Part shown: positions 10,004 through 50,351 of the stretch, one piece after another | Layout of the letters: the number at the start of each line of letters is the position of its first letter | How positions within the stretch are numbered: position 1 is the stretch's first letter | Source of the DNA: Terriglobia bacterium | GTDB lineage: Bacteria > Acidobacteriota > Terriglobia > Bryobacterales > Bryobacteraceae | Assembly: GCA_021324185.1 (NCBI GenBank) | Contig: JAJPJN010000097.1 | Span: 1-64,000 of the forward strand | Direction: 5' to 3' | DNA length: 64,000 nt | The notes under the pieces: generated by a model | Seen by the model: only the letters and a program-made list of their open reading frames with translations | Databases searched by the model: none | Told to the model about the DNA's origin: nothing | Made by a program: the position numbers and the translations under genes

Positions 10004-11466
10004 CCGGAGCGCTGGAAAATCGCCATAGCGGCTAGGCCCGCAGCCACGAACCAAGCTGGCGAGGGCTCGGGAGTCGAAGCCGCCGCTGAATCGACTGTAC
10101 CAGCCGATTCCCATGTTGTAACCGTGACTTCTCCGGAATAATCCGTCACTGTGCCGGTACTCCTGTTCGTCACCGTGCCGAGGTTGACCGGAAAGTTAGT
10201 GGTGCTCGAAGCTGGGAAACCGTTATTCAGATTAGTGAAGCTTTCGCAGCCGAGAATCTTGGAATACGTTGTCGCGGCATCGACCGGATCGGTGATGATG
10301 GTGTCGCCCACGTCGTTGGCGCCGCCGCAAACCGTGCCAATGACGGAAGTCGCGGTTAAGCTGATCACTCCGGGGTCCAGGGCCGGATAGGACGGCGACC
10401 CATCTTGCGAATAGCTGCCTGAAGCTCCCAGAACGAATGGGAAATTGTAATTGAGCATTCCGTTATTTTGGAGGTATCCCAACGCGGTCAACTCCTCATC
10501 GATCGTCTTGCCATTATCCAGTGTGATTCCATCCGTCGCGTTATTGGGGTTTTGCAATAGCTGGTTGTACGTGTAGGTCTGCGGGCTCGTCGGGTAGGCC
10601 GCGTTGAAGATAGAGGAGTTCACGTTCGTTTCGATCACGATCGTGCCCAGATCGACGCCCACGATTGTGCTTGCTATCGCGGAAGGAGCCGCGAAAATGG
10701 ATGCCAAAGTCGCGCCCGCCAGCCCAATGCGACGAAGATCCATGCGCCTCATATTCAGTCCGCCCTTCTTTTTGCGTATCGCCAGGATCGCTTTGCGTAT
10801 CGCCAGGATCGCCGCCATTCCGATGCCTGTCAGAACCACGGCTTCCGGCTCGGGCGCCGTACTGTTGCCCGATTCGGTGTAGCTCACGGTTCCGGTTAGC
10901 GCCACCTCCGTGTAGCCGCGCGGATTCAGCGCTCCGTACGAACCCGCCTCCGTGTTGTTTACGATTAGCAGCAGCGTGTTCGAGCCGCCGATGTTGAAAC
11001 CCGTCGCCACGGCGCCCATCTCGGATGATGCGCCGCCGAAGCTGTAGCTGTTGTTCGGTCCTCCGTCGGTGAGCACCATGGAGCCGGCGACCGGAGCCGC
11101 CCCTCCCGCGCCGAGGTTGTACCCGTTCCCGATCTGCGTCCCATTCAGTTCGAGCACCGTGCGGTCGTCGGCTTGTAATCCGCTGAAGACGAGCGACGCG
11201 CTCGTGGTGTCCGCGGGAAGGGTGAAGGCGAAACTGGCGGTCCAAAAGCCATCAAACGCGCTGGTGCAGGTTGAACTCAGGCACGCCGATCCGTTAAAGG
11301 CGCTGATGAAGTTTCCTCCGGAGTAACCGGCATATGCTGTACCATTCGTAATGCTTTGGCTCGGGATGCCAATGGTCCACGTGCCCGTGGCGGTAGTCGC
11401 CGTAATCGTTCCCGCATAGCCGCTGGCGGCGATCAAAGCCGCCGGAAGCAGAATCATCCGAAACAT
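9895..11466 (-). CDS. Two PEP-CTERM exported proteins fused in one open frame
   Basis: A 523-residue frame that contains two complete exported proteins. Unit 1 (residues 1-238) has a signal peptide (MFRMILLPAALIAASGYAG), a beta-rich domain and a PEP-CTERM tail (PEPEAVVLTGIGMAAILAIR then KKK). Unit 2 (239-523) starts MRRMDLRRIGLAGATLASIF, a second signal peptide, and ends with TPEPSPAWFVAAGLAAMAIF followed by a basic segment and about 28 extra residues. In the family the tail is recognised by an exosortase that sorts the protein to the cell surface. The ATG at 11464-11466 has AAAGGAGGG upstream. No stop lies between the units, but AAGGGCGG stands before the second ATG (10750-10752), so separate translation is possible. 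No exosortase gene is in the window. Confidence 0.7.
   Translation of the reverse strand: MFRMILLPAALIAASGYAGTITATTATGTWTIGIPSQSITNGTAYAGYSGGNFISAFNGSACLSSTCTSAFDGFWTASFAFTLPADTTSASLVFSGLQADDRTVLELNGTQIGNGYNLGAGGAAPVAGSMVLTDGGPNNSYSFGGASSEMGAVATGFNIGGSNTLLLIVNNTEAGSYGALNPRGYTEVALTGTVSYTESGNSTAPEPEAVVLTGIGMAAILAIRKAILAIRKKKGGLNMRRMDLRRIGLAGATLASIFAAPSAIASTIVGVDLGTIVIETNVNSSIFNAAYPTSPQTYTYNQLLQNPNNATDGITLDNGKTIDEELTALGYLQNNGMLNYNFPFVLGASGSYSQDGSPSYPALDPGVISLTATSVIGTVCGGANDVGDTIITDPVDAATTYSKILGCESFTNLNNGFPASSTTNFPVNLGTVTNRSTGTVTDYSGEVTVTTWESAGTVDSAAASTPEPSPAWFVAAGLAAMAIFQRSGYFFRFFRTGAAPGSGSENKSSVRSVLNFTESENIS
10753..10768 (-). promoter_or_regulatory. Internal ribosome-binding site before second PEP-CTERM unit
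   Basis: On the minus strand AAGGGCGG precedes ATG 10750-10752 by about 7 nt. The ATG opens a clear second signal peptide, so this site may initiate the second protein independently of the upstream reading frame. Confidence 0.45.
10771..10812 (-). repeat. 21-bp perfect tandem duplication in PEP-CTERM tail
   Basis: Two adjacent identical 21-bp units (10771-10791 and 10792-10812) encode the repeated heptapeptide AILAIRK-AILAIRK at the cytoplasmic end of the first PEP-CTERM segment. The duplication keeps frame and lengthens the hydrophobic/basic tail. Confidence 0.95.
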
Positions 11467-37649: not shown

Positions 37650-38783
37650 ATGACAGCAGTAATGAACGGCGAAACAGCGGCTCGCAAGGTATTGGTCGTG
37701 GATGATCAGGAAGACGTGCGGCAGGCCTTACGGCTGCTGCTGAAGGGCTCGGGGTATCGCAGCGAAGAGGTAAGCTCGCCCCACGCGGCGCTGGCAAGCG
37801 CGGCCTATGGGGACCACGATCTGATCATCGCGGACATGAACTACACCTGGGACACAACGTCGGGAGAAGAAGGACTGCGGCTGCTGGACGGCTTGCGGGC
37901 GCAGCGGCCGGATGTGCCGGTGATCGCCATGACCGGATGGAGCACGATTGAGCTGGCCGTGGAAGCGATGCATCGCGGCGCCTGTGATTTCATTCCGAAG
38001 CCATGGGACAACCGGCATTTCCTGGCGGTCATCAAGAAGCACATCGACACGCCACCGGAAACAGGCAAGCCGCGGGATGCGGAGCTGGCGATCGCGCGCA
38101 AAGTACAGCGCACGTTGCTGCCTGCGCCCCACGTTTCACTCTGTGGTCTGGAGTGCGAGTGCGCCTCGCTGCCGGCAGGCGATATTAGCGGCGACTTATA
38201 CGATTTCCTGGGGATCGATTCGGAGGCAATGGCGTTTGTTTTGGGCGACGTCTGCGGGAAGGGAATTGGGGCGGCCCTGCTGGTCGCCAATCTGCAAGCC
38301 ACTCTTCGGAGCCTGGAGGAGCTTGCGCGCGAACCGGCTAAATTGATGGACCGCGTGAATCGCCTGTTTTTCGAATGCACACGCCCGGAGCACTTCGCGA
38401 CGCTTTTTTACGGGGTCTACGATGCGCGTTTCCGGCGAATCCGCTATGTGAATTGCGGCCATCCGGCGCCGGTGCTGTTGAGAGCGGACCATACAGTCGA
38501 ATTGCTTCAGCCCACGGCTACCGTGCTGGGCGCCTTCAAGAAAGGCGGTTTTCCAGAAGAGACGGTGGAGTTGCGCTCGGGCGATCAGGTGATCGTGTAT
38601 TCAGACGGATTCTCGGAAGCGGATAGTGAAGACGAGAGCGGCGTCTGGGCCATCGAGACCATTCGACGGCTAGGCAGCGTCAGGAGTGCCGGGCTGGCGG
38701 GCGCGCTGGCCAATGAAGCGGCGTCTCTGGGGCCGCGGCGTGATGACATTACGGTAATGCATTTGAGGCAAGCGGCGGCTTGA
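37650..38783 (+). CDS. Response regulator with PP2C-type (SpoIIE/RsbU) phosphatase output
   Basis: The 377-residue protein has a receiver domain (about 12-135: acidic VVDDQEDV, phospho-Asp in IIADMNY, Thr in AMTGWS, Lys in FIPKPWD) and a PP2C-like phosphatase domain (about 150-375) with metal aspartates in AGDISGDLYDF, LGDVCGKGIGAALL, VYSDGFSEAD and RRDDITVMHL. Such proteins dephosphorylate anti-anti-sigma factors in partner-switching stress pathways. The receiver carries a loop insert with DTTSGEEG, seen also in NtrC-like regulators. A histidine kinase and an anti-sigma factor are not in the window. The gene overlaps the GH16 gene. Confidence 0.93.
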   Translation: MTAVMNGETAARKVLVVDDQEDVRQALRLLLKGSGYRSEEVSSPHAALASAAYGDHDLIIADMNYTWDTTSGEEGLRLLDGLRAQRPDVPVIAMTGWSTIELAVEAMHRGACDFIPKPWDNRHFLAVIKKHIDTPPETGKPRDAELAIARKVQRTLLPAPHVSLCGLECECASLPAGDISGDLYDFLGIDSEAMAFVLGDVCGKGIGAALLVANLQATLRSLEELAREPAKLMDRVNRLFFECTRPEHFATLFYGVYDARFRRIRYVNCGHPAPVLLRADHTVELLQPTATVLGAFKKGGFPEETVELRSGDQVIVYSDGFSEADSEDESGVWAIETIRRLGSVRSAGLAGALANEAASLGPRRDDITVMHLRQAAA

Positions 38784-39577
38784 AGACTTGTGTGCCTGCC
38801 GCCGTCCTCTCGCTCTGTCTGTTGCTCCTGACAATCGTTCCGGCGCCGGCGCAAACGCACCTGATCTGGAGTGACGAATTTGATGGAGCCGCGGGTACGC
38901 CTCCCGATCCGGCAAAGTGGACCTTCGACTTAGGCGCGGGCGGCTGGGGCAATCACGAACTGGAGCGCTATATGGATGCTCGCACGAACGTAGAGCAAGA
39001 CGGGCGCGGGCATCTGGTTATCCGCGCCACTCGAAGTCGAACCGGTGAATTTGAGTCCGCGCGGATTAAGACCCAGGACCGGTTCTCCTTTACGTATGGC
39101 CGCGTGGCGGCGCGGCTCAAGCTTCCTCGCGGGCAAGGCATGTGGCCGGCGTTCTGGATGCTAGGAAACGACATCAAGACCGCCGGTTGGCCGCAGTGCG
39201 GCGAAATCGACATCATTGAAAACATAGGCCGCGAGCCCGGTACGATCCATGGCACCGTGCATGGCCCCGGATATTCCGGAGCGCACGGCATCGGCGCGTC
39301 ATTTGTCTTCGAGAAACCGGAGTCGCCGTCTGATTCGTATCATGTGTACGCCGTAGATTGGCGGGTGAACCGAATGGATTTTCTGGTGGATGGCGTGGCC
39401 TATCAGACGATTACTCCGGAGAAACTTCCTGCTGGCGCGAAATGGGTCTACGACCACCCGTTCTTTCTGCTTGTGAATCTGGCGGTGGGTGGATCCTGGC
39501 CGGGCGCGCCCGATGCCTCCACCGTTTTCCCACAGGAACTGAGTGTCGATTGGGTGCGGGTCTACAGCAACCAATAG
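38780..39577 (+). CDS. Glycoside hydrolase family 16 (beta-glucanase-like), secreted
   Basis: A 265-residue exported enzyme. TTG 38780 overlaps the TGA of the phosphatase gene and gives a signal peptide (CVPAAVLSLCLLLLTIVPAP, cleaved after A-Q). The catalytic signature is GEIDIIENIG, the E-x-D-x-x-E of GH16, and neighbouring blocks (WSDEFDGAAG, YGRVAARLKLPRGQGMWPAF, FFLLVNLAVGG) also fit. GH16 enzymes cleave beta-1,3/1,4-glucans, agar or carrageenan; the specificity cannot be read here. GTG 38792 is an alternative start. Confidence 0.93.
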   Translation: MKTCVPAAVLSLCLLLLTIVPAPAQTHLIWSDEFDGAAGTPPDPAKWTFDLGAGGWGNHELERYMDARTNVEQDGRGHLVIRATRSRTGEFESARIKTQDRFSFTYGRVAARLKLPRGQGMWPAFWMLGNDIKTAGWPQCGEIDIIENIGREPGTIHGTVHGPGYSGAHGIGASFVFEKPESPSDSYHVYAVDWRVNRMDFLVDGVAYQTITPEKLPAGAKWVYDHPFFLLVNLAVGGSWPGAPDASTVFPQELSVDWVRVYSNQ

Positions 39578-39616
39578 GACAGTGCAGCCATTAGGCAAAC
39601 GTGTTACGTTCTGGAC

Positions 39617-40453
39617 ATGTCCTTGACGTTATCGCGCAGATCGTTTGTCGCCGCTGCTTTGCCTGCTTTTACAGCCTGGAAACTGGTTGCGGCGGAAAAG
39701 CACATCCCTATAGGCCTGGAACTCTACTCGGTACGCGACGAGCTGAAGAAGGACTTGACCGGAACTGTGGACGGGGTCGCCAAGATGGGTTACGAGTGCG
39801 TTGAATTTTTTGCACCGTACTTCCAATGGACCCCCGACTATGCCAAGCAGGTCCGCAAGCAGTTAGACGACCTGAAAATTCGCTGTTATTCCACGCACAA
39901 CAACATGGAATCGTTCGGCGCCGGCATGGAACATGCAATGGAGTTAAACAACATTTTGGGCACGAAGTACATCGTGCTTGCCAGCGCAGGCAAAGTCACG
40001 GGCATCGACGGCTGGAAGCAGGTAGCTGAAACGCTAAACAAAGCCAACGAGAAGATGTCGGCTTCCGGGCTGCATGCCGGCTACCACAATCATGCAGTGG
40101 AATGGAAGCCCATCGATGGCCAGATGCCGCTGCGCGTTTTGGCGGACAACACGGACAAGAGCATCATGCTGCAACTTGACGTGGGCACCTGCGTGGAAAC
40201 GGGCAATAATCCAGTGGAATGGATCAACAACCATCCGGGCCGCATCCGTTCGCTGCATTTGAAAGACTGGTCGCCGGATAAGGGGTATCGCGTCTTATTT
40301 GGCCAGGGAGTCGTGCCGTGGAAGGAAGTATTTGCAGCCGCCGAATCGAAGGGCGGCGTGGAATATTACCTGATTGAACAAGAAGGCAGCGACTTGCCTG
40401 AGATGGAAACGGTTGACCGGTGCCTGATCGCGTTTCGCGAAATTCACGGCTGA
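39617..40453 (+). CDS. Sugar phosphate isomerase/epimerase-like TIM-barrel protein, Tat-type export
   Basis: The 278-residue protein starts with a twin-arginine-type signal (LSRRSFVAAALPAF) and continues with the xylose isomerase-like barrel: IGLELYSVRDELKKDLTGTV, VAKMGYECVEFFAPYF, YHNHAVEWKP and LDVGTCVETGNNPVEW, LHLKDWS, EYYLIEQEGS. Metal-binding E, D and H residues are in place. Members act on keto/aldo sugars or inositols; the substrate is unknown. It follows the GH16 gene by 39 bp and precedes the cobalamin riboswitch. Confidence 0.85.
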   Translation: MSLTLSRRSFVAAALPAFTAWKLVAAEKHIPIGLELYSVRDELKKDLTGTVDGVAKMGYECVEFFAPYFQWTPDYAKQVRKQLDDLKIRCYSTHNNMESFGAGMEHAMELNNILGTKYIVLASAGKVTGIDGWKQVAETLNKANEKMSASGLHAGYHNHAVEWKPIDGQMPLRVLADNTDKSIMLQLDVGTCVETGNNPVEWINNHPGRIRSLHLKDWSPDKGYRVLFGQGVVPWKEVFAAAESKGGVEYYLIEQEGSDLPEMETVDRCLIAFREIHG

Positions 40454-40499
40454 CGCTGTTCCGCGGTTCCACTTGCTTTACTTGTTTGCTACTCTGGTT

Positions 40500-40700
40500 A
40501 TCGCTGTTGGTACGGCGAAGTTGTTCGAAGCAACTCGTTGTTGAAAAGGGAACCTGGTGTGAATCCGGGACTGCCCCGCAGCGGTAATCAGGAACGAAAG
40601 CCCAAAATGGCACTCTGGGGTACAAAACAGGGGAAGCCGGGCCGTAGAGAAACAATCGACAAAAGATTGTCGCGCCTGTAAGTCCGAAGACCTGCCGCAG
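40500..40700 (+). ncRNA. Cobalamin riboswitch
   Basis: The core AAAAGGGAACCTGGTGTGAA ... CTGCCCCGCAGCGGTAA (40544-40588) and the downstream box AAGTCCGAAGACCTGCC (about 40680-40696) are the conserved cobalamin aptamer. Both elements are in the usual order, with a variable arm between them. It stands about 60 nt before the receptor start, where it would switch off translation or transcription when cobalamin is plentiful. Confidence 0.95.
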
Positions 40701-40759
40701 CCCGCACGGGATACCGCGCGGTTGTAGTGAAATTCGTGCAGCCTCGAGGGATGGCGGAC

Positions 40760-43119
40760 ATGTCTCGCACTTACTTATACGTATTTGTTTCTCTGTTTAG
40801 CGCTGTTTTCGCAGGTGCGGCAGAAAAAACAGCCACCATTTCCGGAGTTGTAACAGATCCTTCCGGAGCTTCGGTTCCGAACGCCAACGTTAATCTCCAT
40901 CAGATTGCCGGGAGCGCTTTACTCAGTACGGAATCGGATTCGTCAGGGCGCTATGAACTGTCCGGCGTTGCAGCGGGCAGTTACTTGCTGGGCGCATCGG
41001 CCCCGGGACTTAGCATGCCGCGGCTCCTGAGTCTTGCGGTAGCGGCCGGTGAAACACGTATCATCGAGTTACATCTGATCGTGAGTGCGGCCAGCTCGCA
41101 AGTGACTGTAACAGCGGCCGGAGAGCCGCAATCGGTCGATCAGGTTTCTAAACAACTGGATGTTGTGAATGCGGCCGATGCCGAGCAGCGCGGAATTTTT
41201 TCGGTCGCGCAAGCGATCTCGTTTTTACCCGGCGTCCGCGTCACAACGCGCGGCGGTCCGGGCGAATACACCGAAATTCAGACGCGCGGTCTTCGTTATA
41301 TCGATACCAGCATTCTGGTTGACGGATTCCGCTTCCGCGACCCGACCGCGCCGCAAGCCGATGCCAGCGCATTTGCCGGCCAGTTGTTTCTGACCGACAC
41401 ATCACGCATCGAAGTGCTGCAAGGTTCGGGCTCATCGCTGTATGGCACCAACGCGATGGCAGGCGTAATAAACATCATTACGCAGCCAGGCGGCGGCCCG
41501 GCGCACGGCGGTATCGACGTGCAAGGTGGCGGCCTGGGTTTGTTCCATGGCGTGGCGCGCGTGGCCGGCGGCGCATTCGCTAACCGCTTCGCATATTCAG
41601 CCGGCATCTCTAATCTGAACATCAGCAGCGGTGTAGATAGCGTGGAGGCGGCGCGCGATTGGAGCGGACAGGGCGAGGCCGCTTATACTCTCACGCCGAA
41701 GATTCGGATTTCCGCTTTGTTGCTTGGTAACGCGGGTTTCACTCAAATCCCCGTGAGCCCCATGCCGTCAACAACGGCTCCGAGCGCCGGAATCATTCCC
41801 GCCATCCCGCTCACAACATTTGTTCCCTCGCTGGGCGACCCCGATTCCGGTGTTTACTCCCACTACATCGATTCGCTCTATCGTTTCGAGCACGAGGTGA
41901 CCCCGCGCGTGTCGTATCGCATTGGCTATCAGATAGTGAGCAGCGAGCGCGATAACCGAAATGGCCCGGGGGGGGCCGGTTTTTACCAACCCGTATTCAA
42001 TCAATCGGATAAATACGTGGGCCGCATCGACACAGTGCAGGCGAAAGCGAATTACCTGTTCGGATCGCATCAGGTCCTCACTGCCGGATACGAGTTCGAG
42101 CAGGAGCGCTATACAAACATCACAACGGATTCGAACCCAATCCTGTCGCAGCGGGTTTACCAGCGCACGGCGGCGCGGCAGCGCGACCATGCGGCCTTTG
42201 CGCAGGACGAGATCCGGTTGCTCGATAAGCGCCTGGAGATTCTGTTATCGGGCCGGTTTACACAGGCGAATCTGGACCAGCCCACCCTTGTCGGCGCACA
42301 ATCCCATATGCCGGCATAAAGCTGGCTAATCCGCCTTCGGCACTTACCGGCGATGCATCGATCGCTTACTTTCTTGGCACGAGCGCAACCAAAATTCGCG
42401 CGCACGCGGGTAACAGCTTTCGCTTGCCGTCCTTATACGAGCGGTTCGGCGGCTTTCTATTTGATGGAATCGATTACGCCTATGGAGATCCGCGGCTGGC
42501 GCCTGAGCGTGCCGTTTCCGGCGATGCTGGTTTCGACCAGTATCTGTTTCAGCAGCACTTAAAAATCAGCGGAACTTATTTCTATACGCGCCTTCAGCAT
42601 GTAATCACTTATCTGAGTTTTCCGCCCGGATACGTGGATCCATTCGGGCGTACCGGCGGGTATGCGGGAGCGCCGGGCGGTATGTCGCGCGGGGTGGAAG
42701 TTAGCGGCGATTTTCACCCGGCACGCAGTACGAGCATTTACTCTACGTATACGTACACAAACTCAAAGGACCTGCATTCGGAATATTACACGGGCCTGCC
42801 CTATGCCCCTCTACAGACTCCGCGAGTTCTTCCGCATCAGGTTTCGATTGTCGCGACGCAAGGACTAGGCAAGCACATCGATCTAGGCATGGATTTCATC
42901 CGCGGGAGTAAGTTCCTGTTTCCGCTTTACGGCTACGCCTATCAGTTCAACGGTCCTCGCCAGCTTGGCTTCGATGCGGGCTATACGGCCAATTTCAATG
43001 AAAAGACGACTGTGCGGTTTTATCTTCGCGTCTCCAATGCGCTCGATCAGAGCTATTATGAAGACGGGTTCCGCACCCCTCCGCGCTGGGCGGTAGGCGG
43101 TATCCATTTCGCTTTTTGA
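40760..43119 (+). pseudogene. btuB: BtuB-type TonB-dependent cobalamin receptor, frameshifted
   Basis: ATG 40760 follows GAGGG at 9 nt and begins a signal peptide (MSRTYLYVFVSLFSAVFAGA). A carboxypeptidase-regulatory domain (about 24-105), the plug (SQVTVTAAGEPQSVDQ to NAMAGVINIITQPGG, about 115-235) and barrel strands follow. The first frame stops at 42319 (519 codons); the second frame from 42301 continues SPY-like AGIKLANPPSALTGDAS, then GNSFRLPSLYERFGGFLFDG and ends with a C-terminal aromatic strand (AVGGIHFAF) at 43119. One missing C in CCC 42303-42305 restores the reading. The cobalamin riboswitch upstream supports cobalamin uptake. The rest of both frames is clean. Confidence 0.9.
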
Positions 43120-43123
43120 AGTT

Positions 43124-43360
43124 ATGACAGTAGAAATTAAACGCTGCTTTATTTGAGCGGAACTGAAAGCTGGGGCCGTGAGCCTCAAGGAAAGGATCGA
43201 ACGGGAACTCGGGGTGCCTGTTCGAGTGCGCGCCGGTGCGCCGGGATCTTTCAACGTTTTCGTAGATGGAAAACAGATCTACAGCAAAAAACGCAACGAG
43301 GATCTGCCCAATCCGGACGAAATCCTCCAACTAGTGCGCGAAAAAGCTTCCGCACGATAA
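43124..43360 (+). CDS. SelW-like (Rdx family) selenoprotein, Sec encoded by TGA
   Basis: ATG 43124 lies 4 bp beyond the btuB stop. The 78-codon frame contains an in-frame TGA at codon 11 (43154-43156) and reads VEIKRC-F-I-U then AELKAGAVSLKERIERELGV. The remainder, VRVRAGAPGSFNVFVDGKQI and YSKKRNEDLPNPDEILQLV, matches the Rdx/SelW family end to end (thioredoxin-like fold, C-x-x-C or C-x-x-U redox motif). Without Sec, only a fragment from GTG 43178 would be called, lacking the redox motif. A SECIS-like hairpin follows the TGA. These proteins act in thiol redox; the partner is unknown. Weak GAAG precedes ATG, so coupling to btuB is likely. A host with SelA, SelB, SelC and SelD is needed. Confidence 0.8.
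43157..43190 (+). promoter_or_regulatory. Candidate bacterial SECIS element
   Basis: Twenty nt after the TGA, GGGGC (43172-43176) pairs with GCCTC (43182-43186, with one G-U), extended by a U-A pair. The apical loop is CGTGA, with G at the second position as required for SelB recognition. Spacing and loop fit the published bacterial SECIS rules (16-37 nt from the TGA). Confidence 0.6.
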
Positions 43361-43452
43361 AGATCGGGCAAAAAGGTCTCCTTTGCCGGGCGGAGGCAGG
43401 CGAAAGTGCCTGTGCTGGCATGGGCATTCTCGTAAGCTGGCAATAGCTGCCC

Positions 43453-46122
43453 ATGAAGCTCAAGCTCGCTCTTTCTATCGGAATACTGTCACTATTCGGA
43501 TTTGCCAGGCAGACGCCGGCTCCGTCCTCTGTCGAGTCAAACGTCACGCGTGCCACGCTGGACAACGGCCTGCGCGTGGTGATTGTTCGTGATCCGCTGG
43601 CGCCCGTCGCCACAGTCGAAAACAATTACCTGGTCGGCGCTGATGAAACACCGCCGGGCTTTCCGGGTCTTGCCCACGCTCAGGAGCATATGGCGTTCCG
43701 CGGCTGCTCGGGTTTGACGGCGGATCAAATTGCGGCCATCTATGCCCAGCTCGGCGGCTACATGGATGCCGATACGCAACAGAACATCACGCAGTATTTC
43801 GTAACCGTGCCATCGCAGGATCTCGACGTTGCGCTGCGGGTTGACGCGGCCTGCATGTCGAACGTCGAAGATTCCCAGGAGCAGTGGGCGCAAGAGCGCG
43901 GCGCCATTGAGCAGGAGGTCTCACGCGATCTTTCGAATCCGATCTATAAATTCATCACACGACTGAATCAGGACATGTTTGCCGGAACGCCCTATGCGCA
44001 GGACGCGCTCGGAACGGCGGCTTCCTTCGATCAGACGACCGGCGCCATGCTGAAGGCATTCTACGCGAAATGGTATGCGCCAAATAACTCGATCCTCATC
44101 ATCACGGGCGATGTCGATCCTGCGGCGACGCTGGCAAAAATCCGCCAGCTTTATGGAAGCATCCCACGCAAAAATCTGCCCCCCAGGCCGGAAGTCAATC
44201 TGCAGCCGGTGAAAGCGGAATCGTTTACGCTCGACAGCAACCTGCCGTATCTTTTGACGATTCTTTCGTTTCGCTTTCCGGGGACGGACAGTCCTGATTT
44301 TGCGGCAGCGCGCGTTCTAGCCGACGTGCTTTCCAGCCAGCGGGCCAAACTCTACGACCTGGTGCCGCGGGGCAAAGCTTTGGGAACCGAATTTGCGCTA
44401 CTCGAAACCTACCCCAAGGCAAGCGTTGGTTTCGCGCTGGGCGCGATTCCGGCGGGCGCCGATCCGGCTTCCATCAATGCAGAAATCAAGAACATCATGG
44501 CGGATTACGTGGCTCATGGCGTTCCTGACGATCTGGTAGAGGCAGCAAAAAAAGGCGAAGTGGCCAGCGCTGAATTTTCGCGCAACTCGATTACGAATCT
44601 GGCGGCGCTCTGGTCGCAAGCATTGGCTGCCGAAGGCCGCCAGTCACCGGAACAGGACGTGGACGACATCAAGCGCGTGACTGTAGACGATGTGAACCGC
44701 GTGGCAAAAAAATACCTGCAAACGCAAAATGCAATTCAGGCCGTTCTGAAGCCGGTCCCATCAGGTGAGCCGGCGGCGGCAAAAGGCTTCGGCGGTTCGG
44801 AAAAGGCCACCAGCACGCCAACCAAACCAGTGGCGCTTCCGGAATGGGCGGAAGCGGCTGTGAAATCCCTGCGCATTCCCAAGGCCACGGTGAACCCGAA
44901 CGATGTCAAGCTCTCAAACGGCATTCGCCTGATTGTTCAAACGGAAACAACCAGTCCGACCGTTACGGTTGTGGGCTCGATCAAAACGCAGACCCAGCTC
45001 GAGACACCTCCCGGCCAGGACGGCGTGTCGGACGTGCTGGAAGGTCTGTTTTCTTATGGGACGAAAACGTTGGACCGCCTGGCGTTCCAGAAAGCTCTGG
45101 ACGACATTGCGGCTTCCGAATCCGCGGGTGCGAATTTCAGCCTCAAAGTGCTGAAGCAGGATTTCAATCGCGGCGTCGAGTTGCTTGCTGATAACGAACT
45201 GCATCCAGCGCTCCCCACCGACGCGTTCAAAGTAGTTCAGCAGCAAACAGCGCAGTTCAGCGAAGGAGAGCTGCAAAGTCCCGGCTACCGCATGGATCGG
45301 GCTTTGCAGAAAGCGCTACTTCCTCCCGGCGATCCGCTGCTGCGTGAGACCACGCCGAAAACAATTTCTTCGCTGAACTACAACGACGTCACCGCATATT
45401 ACGCGAAGACTTTCCGGCCCGATTTGACAACCATCGTCGTGATTGGCGATATCACGATGGAGCAGGCCCGCCCCGTCATCGAAAAGTATTTCGGCGCGTG
45501 GCAAGTCTCGGGCCCGAAGCCCGACGTGGTGCTTCCTCCTGTTCCCGCCAACAAAGCGAGTGCGGTCAATGTGCCGGATCCGAGTCAGGTTCAGGACACG
45601 GTCGAGCTTGCAGAGGAACTTGAAATGAACCGCTTTAATCCCGATTATTATGCCCTGGTGGTTGGCAATCACGTGCTTGGGGGCGGTTTCTACGCCACTC
45701 GGCTCTATCGCGATTTGCGCGAAAAGGCCGGCTATGTGTATAGCATCGAGGATTCGCTCACGGCAGGCGAAACTCGCTCGGTTTACAGCATCGAATACGG
45801 CTGCGATCCGAAGAACGTATCGAAGGCCCGCGTGATGGTGGAGCAGGAGCTTTACGACATGCAGAAGACCACCGTGACTCCGTCTGAACTGCAGCAGGCG
45901 AAGGCGCTTTTGCTGCGGCAGATTCCGCTCGCCGAATCCAGCGAAGATGCTGTGGCAGGCGGTTTTATTTCGCGCGCGCGAATTGGTCTGCCCCTGGACG
46001 AACCGTCCCGCGCCGCTGAAAAGTACTTCAATATGACGGCCGATCAGGTACGCGCAGCGTTCGCCAAATATCTCAGCCCGGCGAATTTCGTTCAGGTCGT
46101 GCGTGGGCCGGCGCCGCAATGA
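43453..46122 (+). CDS. M16 family metallopeptidase, two-domain, exported
   Basis: The 889-residue protein has a short signal peptide (MKLKLALSIGILSLFGFA) and two M16 halves. The N-terminal half has the inverted zinc motif H75-A-Q-E78-H79 (GLAHAQEHMAFRG) and the distal Glu in ERGAIEQEV. The second half (from about 475, LSNGIRLIVQTETTSPTVTV) lacks a zinc motif and keeps the R-Y-like substrate region of the family. Together they form the clam-shell peptidase chamber for small unfolded peptides. It overlaps the amidase gene by ATGA. Confidence 0.93.
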   Translation: MKLKLALSIGILSLFGFARQTPAPSSVESNVTRATLDNGLRVVIVRDPLAPVATVENNYLVGADETPPGFPGLAHAQEHMAFRGCSGLTADQIAAIYAQLGGYMDADTQQNITQYFVTVPSQDLDVALRVDAACMSNVEDSQEQWAQERGAIEQEVSRDLSNPIYKFITRLNQDMFAGTPYAQDALGTAASFDQTTGAMLKAFYAKWYAPNNSILIITGDVDPAATLAKIRQLYGSIPRKNLPPRPEVNLQPVKAESFTLDSNLPYLLTILSFRFPGTDSPDFAAARVLADVLSSQRAKLYDLVPRGKALGTEFALLETYPKASVGFALGAIPAGADPASINAEIKNIMADYVAHGVPDDLVEAAKKGEVASAEFSRNSITNLAALWSQALAAEGRQSPEQDVDDIKRVTVDDVNRVAKKYLQTQNAIQAVLKPVPSGEPAAAKGFGGSEKATSTPTKPVALPEWAEAAVKSLRIPKATVNPNDVKLSNGIRLIVQTETTSPTVTVVGSIKTQTQLETPPGQDGVSDVLEGLFSYGTKTLDRLAFQKALDDIAASESAGANFSLKVLKQDFNRGVELLADNELHPALPTDAFKVVQQQTAQFSEGELQSPGYRMDRALQKALLPPGDPLLRETTPKTISSLNYNDVTAYYAKTFRPDLTTIVVIGDITMEQARPVIEKYFGAWQVSGPKPDVVLPPVPANKASAVNVPDPSQVQDTVELAEELEMNRFNPDYYALVVGNHVLGGGFYATRLYRDLREKAGYVYSIEDSLTAGETRSVYSIEYGCDPKNVSKARVMVEQELYDMQKTTVTPSELQQAKALLLRQIPLAESSEDAVAGGFISRARIGLPLDEPSRAAEKYFNMTADQVRAAFAKYLSPANFVQVVRGPAPQ

Positions 46123-47453
46123 GAATTGCCCAACTCGCCCGGGCATTGCGAGCCCGCGAACTGAGCTGCGTTGAGCTCATCGAGAGGACTCTCCGAGAAA
46201 TAGAAGCCCGCGATATTTATCGGAGTTTCATTACGAAAACTGCGGAAGATGCGTTGCAGCAGGCGGCGCTGCGGGACAAGGAGCTTCGCTCCGGCACGGA
46301 CCGCGGCCCCTTGCACGGCATTCCAATCGCGCACAAGGATTTGCTTTACACACGCGGCGTGCGTACAACGGCAGGATCGCTCGTCTTTCGCGATTTTGTC
46401 CCGGAGTATGACGCGGGCGCAGTTATACGGCTCAGAGAAGCGGGAGCAATTAGCATCGGCAAGACGAACCTGCACGAACTTGCTTACGGTGTCACTTCCA
46501 AGAATCCTCACTTCGGCTTTGTTTTGAACCCGCGCGATACAAAGCGAATAGCCGGTGGATCGAGCGGCGGATCAGCGACTCTGGTGGCCGCAGGCTTGCT
46601 CCCGCTCACAACCGGCACAGATACCGGCGGTTCCATTCGTATCCCGGCGTCATTCTGCGGGATTGCCGGTCTGAAGCCGTCTTACGGGCGCGTAAGCTGC
46701 AAAGGCGTTTTGCCGTTGTCCTTCGGTCTCGACCATGTGGGGCCGCTTGCTTCGTGCGTCGAAGACTGCGCAATAGCGATGGACGCTCTGGTTCCGGGCG
46801 AGAAGTTCCATCTGCCCGCACTGGAGAACCTCAAGGGCATTCGAGTGGGCGTGCCGGAGAATTTCTACTTTGATCGGATCGATCCGGAAGTAGCCGCGGC
46901 GGTAAATGGGGCGCTCGCGTCATTTGAGAGACTCGGCGCTGCGATCGATGGAATAAAAGTCCCCGATCCTGTCGAGATGAATGCCGCGGCACGCATTGTT
47001 CAGCTTTGCGAAACGTCGGCTCTTTATGCCGATCATGGCGATGCTTCCCTGTTCAGCCGCGAGGTTTGGGATCTTTTGCAGCAAGGCCGCTTAGTGGCCG
47101 GCCACGATTACGTCAATGCGCAGCGCATGCGTGCAGTCTTCAGCCGCGAATGGGACGCGATTTGGAAAAAAATCGATATCGTCGCAACACCCACGACGCC
47201 CACTGGCGCGCCTTTGCTTGAACAGAGAAAGATCACGCTCAACGGCAAAAACGAAGACGTGCGTCTGGCCTCAACTCGCCTGGTACGTGCATTTAATTAC
47301 CTGGGCGAGCCGGCGCTCTCGATGCCCTGTGGCGCGACATCGCAAGGGTTGCCTATCGGTTTGCAGTTGATCAGCGCGCCATTCACTGAGCCGCGCCTGC
47401 TCCAGGTCGCTCAGACTCTCGAAAGCGATTTGAGGATCGATTTCACCAGATAA
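46119..47453 (+). CDS. Amidase signature family enzyme
   Basis: A 444-residue amidase with the Ser-cisSer-Lys triad: Lys73 (GIPIAHKDLLYTRG), the glycine-serine-rich IAGGSSGGSATLV (Ser148-149), and the nucleophile Ser172 in TGTDTGGSIRIPA. Family members hydrolyse amides or serve as GatA in Glu-tRNA(Gln) transamidation; this copy is not next to gatB/gatC, so a simple amidase is preferred. No signal peptide is present. Its ATG overlaps the peptidase stop, and its end overlaps the methyltransferase gene on the other strand. Confidence 0.9.
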   Translation: MRIAQLARALRARELSCVELIERTLREIEARDIYRSFITKTAEDALQQAALRDKELRSGTDRGPLHGIPIAHKDLLYTRGVRTTAGSLVFRDFVPEYDAGAVIRLREAGAISIGKTNLHELAYGVTSKNPHFGFVLNPRDTKRIAGGSSGGSATLVAAGLLPLTTGTDTGGSIRIPASFCGIAGLKPSYGRVSCKGVLPLSFGLDHVGPLASCVEDCAIAMDALVPGEKFHLPALENLKGIRVGVPENFYFDRIDPEVAAAVNGALASFERLGAAIDGIKVPDPVEMNAAARIVQLCETSALYADHGDASLFSREVWDLLQQGRLVAGHDYVNAQRMRAVFSREWDAIWKKIDIVATPTTPTGAPLLEQRKITLNGKNEDVRLASTRLVRAFNYLGEPALSMPCGATSQGLPIGLQLISAPFTEPRLLQVAQTLESDLRIDFTR

Positions 47454-48010
47454 ACGGCACCAGCGCCTTCACATTGTGTTTGTATGAAAGATACTGATCC
47501 CCGAACTGCTCCTGCATGAAGCGCTCTTCGAGCAGCGATTTCATGCGAAAGCCGATAGTCACCAAAACTACGCCTACAAAGCAGCGCAGCCGGCCAAAGG
47601 TGATTGATGTTCCTAGCGCGGCAAACGCAAATCCCGTGTAGATCGGGTGGCGAACAAGCGCATACGGCCCTTTTGCGTATCAGTGTGTGGTCCTGCTTGA
47701 CGGTTACGGAGGCGCTCCAGTTGCCACCGAGAGACAAGCGCGCCCAAATCGCGAATAGAATGCCCGCCAACGTGAGGGCGCAGCCGAAATATGCGATTGC
47801 TTCAGCCGGTGGAATAATCGTTTCGTTCAATGGACCGAGCGGCCAGCTTGTGTTGAAGATGAGTATAAAACCGAGCACGATGATGCACGAATGAAGCAGC
47901 CGTGAGCTGGCGGACTGCACTCGCACGGCAGGCTTCGAAAGAAGACTGGTGGCCAGCCAGAAAACGGAAATGACGAGCCAAGAGTAATTAACGAGGGTTC
48001 GAACGTTCAT
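47443..48010 (-). pseudogene. Isoprenylcysteine carboxyl methyltransferase-family membrane protein, frameshifted
   Basis: The first frame from ATG 48008-48010 gives several membrane helices (LVNYSWLVISVFWLATSLLS, FGCALTLAGILFAIWARLSL), NWSASVTVKQDHTLIRK, and then loses sense. The second frame continues GPYALVRHPIYTGFAFAALG, the ICMT signature, and ends FGDQYLSYKHNVKALVPFIW at TGA 47443-47445. One extra base in the run of four T at 47671-47674 (AAAA on the coding strand) explains the break. The family methylates isoprenoid or other acceptors with SAM at the membrane. It overlaps the ROK gene by ATGA and the amidase by 11 bp. Confidence 0.85.
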
Positions 48011-48885
48011 AAACGGCTTGCCCTCTCTGCCAGAACCAGGGCCCCCAGGATGCCCGCCTGGTTTCCAAGTTGCGGTGGCCGGATAAAGTCATCCAGTCCC
48101 TGGAGCAGACTGGGATGCCGCACGTATCCGTTCAGCAGGTGAACGAATTCTTTTCGAATGAGTTCGAACAGATGTGGCTGCTGCATCACCCCACCTCCTA
48201 ACAAAATACGCTGGGTCGATAGCGTCACTGTCAGATTCACTAATCCAAGCGCGAGATAATGCGCCTCCAACTCCCAGGCCGGATGATCGGGAGCCAACAC
48301 GCCTGCCGGAGAACCCCAGCGCGCTTGAATTGCGGGCCCGCAGGCCAAACCTTCCAGACAATCGCCATGGAACGGACAAACGCCGGGGAATGGATCACGC
48401 GCCGTATCGTGCGGGATGCGCAGGTGCCCCATTTCGGGGTGGACCATGCCGTGCACCACGCGCTCATGAACGATCGCTCCGCCGCCAATACCTGTTCCGA
48501 TGGTCAGGTAGACGGCATCTGAGAGCCCTTTCGCGGCGCCCCAGCGGGCTTCGCCTAAAATGGCCGCATTTACGTCCGTATCGAATCCGACTGGAACGCC
48601 CAGGGCCTTGCGCACCGTGCCCGCCAGATCATAATTGGCCCATCCGGCCTTGGGCGTAGAAGTGATGTGACCATATCCGGGAGAAGCGGGATCGAGATCC
48701 ACCGGGCCAAAGGAGCCGATGCCGACGGCCTTCAGGTTGCCGGCAACTCGCTCGAAGAAGCCTATGACTTCGGGCAGAGTTACTTCGGGTGCGGAGGTCG
48801 GGAATTGCGCAGTGTGGATGTCGTTTGGACCGGTTCCAACGCCGCATACAAATTTAGTGCCCCCGGCTTCAATGCCTCCAAACAT
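48007..48885 (-). CDS. ROK-family sugar kinase (fructokinase/glucokinase-like)
   Basis: The 292-residue protein has the ATP-binding FGGIEAGGTKFVCGVG, the catalytic GFDTDVNAAILGEARWG (proton-abstracting Asp), TIGTGIGGGAIV, and the zinc-type GVCPFHGDCLEGLACGPA with H-PEMGHL before it, which is typical of the ScrK/YdhR fructokinase subgroup. Hexose-6-phosphorylation with ATP is expected. Its ATG shares one base with the stop of the DUF3565 gene. Confidence 0.93.
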   Translation of the reverse strand: MFGGIEAGGTKFVCGVGTGPNDIHTAQFPTSAPEVTLPEVIGFFERVAGNLKAVGIGSFGPVDLDPASPGYGHITSTPKAGWANYDLAGTVRKALGVPVGFDTDVNAAILGEARWGAAKGLSDAVYLTIGTGIGGGAIVHERVVHGMVHPEMGHLRIPHDTARDPFPGVCPFHGDCLEGLACGPAIQARWGSPAGVLAPDHPAWELEAHYLALGLVNLTVTLSTQRILLGGGVMQQPHLFELIRKEFVHLLNGYVRHPSLLQGLDDFIRPPQLGNQAGILGALVLAERASRL

Positions 48886-49118
48886 TATTCGAGTATATGG
48901 AAGAGCGAACGGCTATCGCTATCAGCTTTGAGATCTACGTCGCATTTCACACAATTGAGCTTTGTGCCCAAAAAGCGGGATCTGCCCTGCTCGGTCTCCA
49001 CCCAGGACCGGTTCTGCCAAGGCGGGTCATGGCGAACGTGCCGCGTGTGGCCGCACTCCAGATCGGCAACCCAGTGACCTTCTTCGTCGCGATGAAATCC
49101 GACAATGGCGCGTTCCAC
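48885..49118 (-). CDS. DUF3565 protein (zinc-ribbon like)
   Basis: The 77 residues match DUF3565 throughout: AIVGFHRDEEGHWVADLECG, HTRHVRHDPPWQNRSW, then GRSRFLGTKLNCVKCDVDL. The invariant histidines and cysteines (C-G-H, C-x-x-C) suggest a metal site. The function is unknown. It is in one transcript with the ROK kinase, with a TAATG-type one-base overlap, and follows the DUF763 gene by 9 bp. Confidence 0.92.
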   Translation of the reverse strand: MERAIVGFHRDEEGHWVADLECGHTRHVRHDPPWQNRSWVETEQGRSRFLGTKLNCVKCDVDLKADSDSRSLFHILE

Positions 49119-49127
49119 AGCCCTGGA

Positions 49128-50351
49128 TCAGTTCGGCATAAATAGCGAAAGCTGCCGGTGGGGCGGTTGGGCCGCTTTCTTCCGCCTGTCGTCGACGACC
49201 GAGCGGCCGTTCAGGCTTTTCGAGATCGCGTGCTCCTGCTCCAGCACGGCTGCAAAGTCGGCTGTGGGTTCATACTGTTCCTCTACGCGCCGGACCAGTT
49301 GATCGAGGCGTTTGAATCCGTCCAGCTTATCGGTGCGGCCAAGCTTGGCTGCATCCAGTGCCCGCCGCAAAATACCGAGCGACTCATCGTACGTTTTCAG
49401 AGGAACCGGAAACGGGTTCCCGTCTTTACCGCCGAGGGCGAACGAGAAGCGCGCTGGATCGGAGAAGCGGCTAGGCGCGCCGTGTATTACTTCGGCCAGC
49501 AGCGCCATCGTTTGTAAGGTTCGCGGGCCCAGGTTTTCAGCCAGCAAAAGCGATGCGAAATCGCGCAACTGCCGCTCATAACTGACGGCCAACACCGCTC
49601 CCAGGCGCTTCAAATCTACATTCTCGGCGCGCACGTCATGATGTCGCGGCAGCGCCAGCTTCTGCACCGTGGCCAGCGTCTTCGCCGGGTCGGTTCGGGA
49701 AATCTCGAGCAAAGCTTCCTGGGCCGCGGCTGCGCGGCGGTCCACTAGATTGAGAATGATGCCCTCGTTTGCGCCTACAATCGCTGTGTGCGGCTCGCTG
49801 ACAAAGTTGCGCACCGAAGCCGAATGCCAGTGATAACGGCGCGCTAAACCGGTCTGCTCATTCAAGCCTTGTTGAATAACGACCCAGTCACCTGAGGCGA
49901 TTACCGCGAAGCCATGCAAATAGATCTGAAACCCATCGCCAATGGCATTGTTATCGATCTTTGCCGTGAGCCGGCTGGTGCGCACCAGCACGGAGCCATC
50001 GAGCCCCGTACGGTCCGCGATCGCCAGCAGCTCTTCCGGCGTCTTTCGCGATTGCTTTCCGCGGCCTCCACAAAAATAGACGCCTAATTCGTGCGCCAGT
50101 GGATTCAGCCCGCGTTTCAAAGCGCCGAGGACAGATGTAGTGATGCCGGAAGAGTGCCAATCCATGCCCATCACGCATCCGAGCGCCTGGAACCAGAACG
50201 GATTGCTGAGGCGCGATAAGAACTCGGCCGCGCCGTAATGCCCGATGATGCGTTCTCCGATCGCCGCGCCCATGCGGGTCATGCGTTCCGCAAGCCACGA
50301 CGGCACGCGCCCGCCATGCAGCGGCAGATCAGCAAAGCCGGAACGTCTCAT
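49128..50351 (-). CDS. DUF763 domain protein
   Basis: The 407 residues start RRSGFADLPLHGGRVPSWLA, the strict signature of DUF763 proteins, and continue with EFLSRLSNPFWFQALGCVMG, MDWHSSGITTSVLGALKRGL and LGVYFCGGRGKQSRKTPEEL. The length is normal. The family is wide in archaea and bacteria and often near DNA-metabolism genes; its biochemical role is not known. It begins an operon with DUF3565 and the ROK kinase. Confidence 0.93.
   Translation of the reverse strand: MRRSGFADLPLHGGRVPSWLAERMTRMGAAIGERIIGHYGAAEFLSRLSNPFWFQALGCVMGMDWHSSGITTSVLGALKRGLNPLAHELGVYFCGGRGKQSRKTPEELLAIADRTGLDGSVLVRTSRLTAKIDNNAIGDGFQIYLHGFAVIASGDWVVIQQGLNEQTGLARRYHWHSASVRNFVSEPHTAIVGANEGIILNLVDRRAAAAQEALLEISRTDPAKTLATVQKLALPRHHDVRAENVDLKRLGAVLAVSYERQLRDFASLLLAENLGPRTLQTMALLAEVIHGAPSRFSDPARFSFALGGKDGNPFPVPLKTYDESLGILRRALDAAKLGRTDKLDGFKRLDQLVRRVEEQYEPTADFAAVLEQEHAISKSLNGRSVVDDRRKKAAQPPHRQLSLFMPN

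Follow-up and report, generated by a model that had tools for sequence, protein, structure and literature searches.

An in-frame UGA predicted to encode selenocysteine in an acidobacterial SelW-like gene with a conserved SECIS-like hairpin

Introduction

The window analysed here, a stretch of 64,000 nucleotides from a Terriglobia bacterium, contains a short reading frame whose sole interruption between its ATG and its TAA is a TGA at codon 11. Does this UGA end translation, mark a decayed gene, or stand for an amino acid, and if so, which? The initial annotation had placed the TGA in a C-F-I-U motif and proposed a SelW-like selenoprotein with TGA-encoded selenocysteine (Sec). It had also expected ordinary gene calling to return only a 60-residue fragment that lacks the active site. 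Reading the frame bears out the position of the TGA and of the motif, and the mechanical list of open reading frames (ORFs) contains exactly such a fragment (Table 1).

Table 1. Coordinates of the features at and around the SelW-like gene in the window
Feature	Position	Strand	Details
Cobalamin riboswitch	40490-40713	+	RF00174, 94.6 bits against a gathering threshold of 31.5; upstream of the receptor gene
TonB-dependent receptor, in two frames	40727-43119	+	Frames 40727-42319 and 42424-43119; ORF list and TonB plug/barrel domains
SelW-like gene, predicted selenoprotein	43124-43360	+	78 residues by TGA read-through, TAA stop at 43358-43360; scores exceed the PF10262 and TIGR02174 cut-offs; orthologues in 7 other species of the genus
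Predicted C-F-I-U redox motif	43145-43156	+	Cys codon TGC 43145-43147; putative Sec codon TGA 43154-43156
SECIS-like hairpin	43172-43186	+	5' arm 43172-43176 GGGGC, loop 43177-43181 CGUGA, 3' arm 43182-43186 GCCUC
60-aa ORF with GTG start, without the CxxU motif	43178-43360	+	Mechanical ORF list, in place of the SelW-like gene

Results

The read-through product, MTVEIKRCFI-U-AELK...KASAR, has Cys at residue 8 and the TGA-encoded residue at 11, both invariant among 13 aligned SelW-like members. Scored with Cys written for Sec, it exceeds the cut-offs of both family models, PF10262 (Rdx; 40.3 bits against 22.6) and TIGR02174 (CXXU_selWTH; 39.5 against 34.2), which agrees with the Rdx/SelW membership first proposed for it; 12 of the 13 aligned members match TIGR02174 at E values up to 0.001. 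An AlphaFold2 model built from the 13 sequences (mean pLDDT 83.2, pTM 0.68) has strands at residues 3-7, 33-37, 42-47 and 50-56 and helices at 12-29 and 64-76. The first strand is followed by a loop that holds the motif, at residues 8-11, and this is the place of CxxC or CxxU in a thioredoxin-like fold. The 21 best PDB matches of the model are all SelW-family chains (TM score over the query 0.68-0.81), among them 2fa8, 3dex, 2oka, 2obk, 2ojl, 2p0g, MIEN1 (2ljk) and mouse SelW (2npb), and thioredoxins follow next. A sequence-only comparison with the PDB gave weak matches, the best being 2ljk at an E value of 0.0014.

We then asked how widely the TGA is shared. A protein similarity search of 60 genomes (the window's own and 59 relatives) matched nine. 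Eight of these, the window's own genome and 7 of the 16 other members of the genus, each carry one TGA in the match, and codon-by-codon reading places it at the same codon in all eight; the ninth match, in a genome of another genus (G022), is weak and has no stop. The remaining 9 of the 17 genus genomes gave no detectable copy; five of them are less than 90% complete and four stand at 92-93%. One genus member, G008, has a second, partial match without a stop (L018, G008:C101:5513-5635). This C-terminal SelW fragment closely resembles the intact copy of that genome, lacks a CxxU in the frames that were read, and is either a partial duplicate or a remnant.

Across the phylum Acidobacteriota, the SelW-like profile matched in 102 of 396 genomes. 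The 30 best-scoring loci are the window's own and 29 others, and all 29 have TGA at the family position. A contig search with a single protein as query confirmed no locus, and one with an alignment as query gave 11 loci, 7 of which duplicate L010-L016 and were left out of the tree; the named relatives are mostly Acidobacteriota metagenome-assembled genomes (MAGs). In total, the codon that is TGA in the window is TGA in 48 of 49 aligned rows, 7 duplicate rows included, and in 41 of the 42 sequences in the tree, the exception in both being the Cys-type L017. Among the phylum's match rows that start no later than profile position 10, a hand count gave 48 with a TGA and 6 without, so TGA-less forms exist in the phylum.

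This distribution bears directly on the possibility that the locus is a pseudogene, a CxxC-type Rdx gene whose second Cys codon has mutated to a stop. A single base separates TGA from either Cys codon, TGC or TGT, and a truncated ORF is all that the mechanical list offers here, both of which suit a pseudogene. It would not explain a single TGA kept at one and the same codon in seven other species of the genus and in nearly all tree sequences, nor the purifying selection on both flanks of the TGA, and we consider it most improbable.

That selection was measured in 10 clade members, located with a pattern that includes the TGA. Codons 2-10 have 0.116, 0.042 and 0.523 substitutions at codon positions 1, 2 and 3, and codons 12-70 have 0.326, 0.195 and 0.563; the 30 nt upstream of the ATG diverge equally in all positions (0.78, 0.77 and 0.76). 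These position-specific rates indicate that selection acts at the protein level on one and the same frame before and after the TGA, starting at about the ATG. Codon 11 is TGA in all 10 members, an invariance partly built in by the locating pattern; since the members were chosen with TGA in the pattern, the independent evidence for the TGA is that of the protein and profile searches described above. The same rates speak to a second alternative, in which only the 60 residues from the GTG at 43178 are translated, as the mechanical ORF list has it, and the upstream codons are an untranslated leader. An untranslated leader should not conserve second positions so much more strongly than third positions when no such difference is seen in the 30 nt upstream of the ATG, nor should it retain the motif E-I-K-R-C while the synonymous codons vary. 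We give this alternative very little credence. In close homologues, the TGA and the N-terminal codons are both conserved, as the initial annotation's reading would have it.

If the UGA is decoded as Sec, the genome should encode the means to do so. The assembly (G000; 4,703,675 bases, 184 contigs, 96.85% complete) contains all four of the genes that had been proposed for a search, each above its curated cut-off: tRNA-Sec, the product of selC (72 bits against a family cut-off of 47; called by ARAGORN as tRNA-SeC with anticodon tca), selA (500.9 against 267.9), selB (376.7 against 242.25) and selD (364.5 against 125). The N-terminus of SelD reads MATRLTANTKAGGCASK, in which we take the Cys to mark the Cys form of the protein. 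We dropped co-occurrence with selA as discriminating evidence because selA is too common, lying above its cut-off in 55 of the 60 genomes, including all 8 with the SelW-like gene.

The same genome holds a further gene with an in-frame TGA, an FdhA-like gene on contig C68 (L073, around 10137-10886), with the TGA at locus position 1921 in the context NQARI-U-HSSTV, presumably the usual Sec site of FdhA. TIGR01591 matches it in separate pieces that do not reach the cut-off (170.9 bits for the best, against 666.25), and the gene has a strong AGUUU-loop hairpin. We regard it as a candidate second selenoprotein of this genome.

A third alternative is that the UGA is read non-specifically, or as another amino acid such as Trp or Cys, and that Sec plays no part. 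The evidence for Sec in the product is indirect, which leaves some room for this reading. The full Sec machinery weighs against it, and so does the use of TGA as a plain stop: the upstream receptor in the window and the orthologues L013, L064 and L066 all terminate in TGA. A simple search found no stem longer than 2 bp after the terminal TGA of the receptor or of these three orthologues. What also argues against it is a synonymous constraint, described next, that sits where a bacterial SECIS belongs, and we rate non-Sec read-through as highly unlikely.

The initial annotation did not mention a hairpin downstream of the TGA, where one is conserved across the relatives. It has a 5-bp stem and a 5-nt loop, and the spacer from the UGA to the 5' arm is 15 nt, so that the hairpin begins at base 16 downstream of the UGA. 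Most members read GAGGC-CGUGA-GCCUC, and the window has GGGGC-CGUGA-GCCUC. As in a bacterial SECIS, the hairpin lies just 3' of the UGA and carries a guanosine in a small apical loop, here the second base of CGUGA.

Folding by itself said little about this element. In the window, the 47-nt stretch from the TGA is no more stably folded than shuffled sequences (z 0.08), and in several members the minimum-energy fold of the 45 nt after the UGA differs from the hairpin. A consensus fold gave the hairpin together with a second helix that pairs the UGA region. None of the 5 pairs has changed on both sides (covariation term -0.19); compensatory changes are absent because the hairpin bases hardly vary. 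Since single-sequence folds were uninformative and the consensus fold lacked compensatory pairs, we turned to synonymous constraint. No other 5-codon window of the gene is as conserved at synonymous level as codons 17-21: in the 10 clade members, 192 synonymous pairs are identical against 66.0 expected (2.9-fold), and in the 8 genus members 115 against 39.3, values that 0 of 2000 shuffles reached in either set. In the remaining codons, synonymous identity is 1.09-1.11 of expectation. Pairing is kept in 96.9% of 65 cells, and in 21.5-46.2% when the hairpin register is slid. The pattern TGA-N15-GRGGCCGTGMGYCTC, which was written from these genes, has 8 matches in the 60 genomes, exactly these eight genes; a reversed control pattern has 1. 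Backed by the synonymous constraint, the hairpin is best described as a SECIS-like element.

To place the gene among its relatives, we built a tree of 42 sequences and 78 columns, rooted at the midpoint; 20 of its 39 inner branches are open, and L036 and L017 sit on long branches. It separates 14 sequences, which we call KRC-type, from the 28 others with a support of 99/100. The 14 comprise the 8 of the genus, a Bryobacteraceae MAG, two copies from a MAG labelled Nevskia soli, a genome of the same class as the window's (G324), a Rokuibacteriota MAG and L036. The other 28 are 27 TGA-bearing sequences and the Cys-type L017; all 27 read YCxxU, and 23 of them YCxVU.

The two groups also differ in their loops. 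Among the KRC-type sequences, 12 of 14 have CGUGA or CGUGC at offset 23, the exceptions being L071, with the loop CGGCG, and L032, without a hairpin in this register. In 18 of the 27 other TGA-bearing sequences, the best hairpin with a 5-nt loop lies at offset 24, with loops GGUCU (7), AGUCU (6), AGGUU (2), AGUUU, AGUGU and GGGCU (1 each), 15 of which fit AGUxU or GGUCU; in the remaining 9 the best hairpin lies at other offsets, mostly with short stems. Tentatively, the KRC-type (mostly KRCFFU) could be a functionally separate Acidobacteriota subfamily of SelW-like proteins, with a copy in a Rokuibacteriota MAG, that stands outside the YCxxU group common across the phylum and has a distinct CGUGA/C loop; a single SelB would then serve both kinds of hairpin within one cell, CGUGA in the window's gene and AGUUU in the FdhA-like gene.

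Two further observations concern members of the group. L064 and L066 are near-identical KRCFFU SelW copies that cluster with Acidobacteriota sequences and come from the MAG labelled Nevskia soli (Pseudomonadota); a mislabelled bin, contamination or transfer could each account for this. Genome G178 carries, beside a KRC-type SelW (KRCVTU; L036, on contig C18), another SelW-like match that contains a single TGA (G178:C9:428494-428709). L036 is very divergent as a protein, yet it keeps a CGUGC hairpin.

The gene had also been described as lying directly behind a cobalamin receptor gene. The adjacency is there: the receptor stop occupies 43117-43119 and leaves 4 nt before the SelW ATG, a gap that makes co-transcription of the two possible in the window genome. 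With TonB plug and barrel domains and a cobalamin riboswitch upstream, the receptor's identity is plausible. The receptor is split into two frames, reflecting either a pseudogene or an assembly error, and its neighbourhood is not shared. We compared, all against all, ORFs of at least 100 aa within 3.5 kb in 11 related loci (L061-L071; L032 and L036 were left out, and some contigs end near the gene) and, on the window's side, ORFs of at least 150 aa in 38001-50000. There was no neighbourhood common to these loci, and the only match was an amidase pair (window 46119-47453 and a Rokuibacteriota ORF). On this basis we rejected a shared operon or partner for the SelW-like gene, and likewise a cobalamin link as a general feature, as the receptor neighbour occurs only in the window genome among the loci compared. 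A promoter and terminator scan at the locus found no promoter-like site and one minus-strand terminator-like site, at chance level. The gene looks free-standing.

Discussion

What does the UGA mean? The conserved TGA with both of its flanks, the Sec machinery, the constraint on the hairpin and the UGA-plus-hairpin pattern, confined to the eight genes among the 60 genomes, together argue that it is Sec. As read from sequence, codon 11 almost certainly specifies Sec in a small selenoprotein with the thioredoxin fold of the SelW/Rdx family. The initial annotation's central claim is supported. The two outcomes that were to speak against it, a genome without Sec machinery and close homologues in which the TGA region is not conserved and the N-terminal part is not translated, were both looked for, and neither was found.

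In the mechanism that we envisage, the gene is expressed and SelB with Sec-tRNA would decode the UGA as Sec, directed by the hairpin that starts at the 16th base after it. Sec and the Cys three residues upstream would form a CxxU redox pair, which may make and break bonds, selenenylsulfide or mixed, to a small thiol or to a protein partner.

The locus adds a well-supported selenoprotein gene whose active site is cut off by plain ORF calling, and genes with an in-frame TGA of this SelW-like family run through the Acidobacteriota. In its mark on the synonymous codons, the hairpin gives a clear example of a stretch under dual constraint, as protein and as RNA, and the CGUGA loop appears to be a variant SECIS loop that is testable against SelB.

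Published work has met this family before. A passage of a 2026 review names SelW-like CxxU proteins (PF10262) as a bacterial selenoprotein family 'predicted with high confidence' (PMC13188914), and a bacterial SelW-like family is also described in another paper (PMC1088965). Elsewhere it is reported that Cys homologues of SelW-like selenoproteins are few or absent in organisms that use Sec (PMC1794560) and that these selenoproteins are abundant in marine samples (PMC2398784). For the acidobacterium Occallatibacter riparius, one passage counts three known selenoprotein genes, whose names that passage does not give (PMC12013277). A literature search in general terms, covering few subscription journals and no supplements, found no mention of a KRCFFU SelW, which is weak evidence of absence.

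How, then, does the window protein compare with known systems? The Campylobacter-type SelTWH model (NF041051) matches it over positions 1-69 of 70; the score of 39.9 bits is far under the equivalog cut-off of 88, and the protein is therefore not an NF041051 equivalog. With the Cys-type Rdx proteins Atu0228 of Agrobacterium (2fa8) and SAV_2001 of Streptomyces (3dex) it shares the fold, within the range of TM scores given above, whereas they have CTQC in place of its CxxU and are 25-27% identical to it. It is closest to the bacterial SelW-like selenoproteins of PF10262 and TIGR02174, which it resembles in its model matches, fold, N-terminal CxxU, hairpin after the UGA and Sec machinery, and from which it differs in sitting in the separate KRC-type group with the CGUGA/C loop. 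As the SelW-like CxxU family is already recognised, the gene of the window is an added member, from a divergent group with a loop of its own, and not a new kind of selenoprotein.
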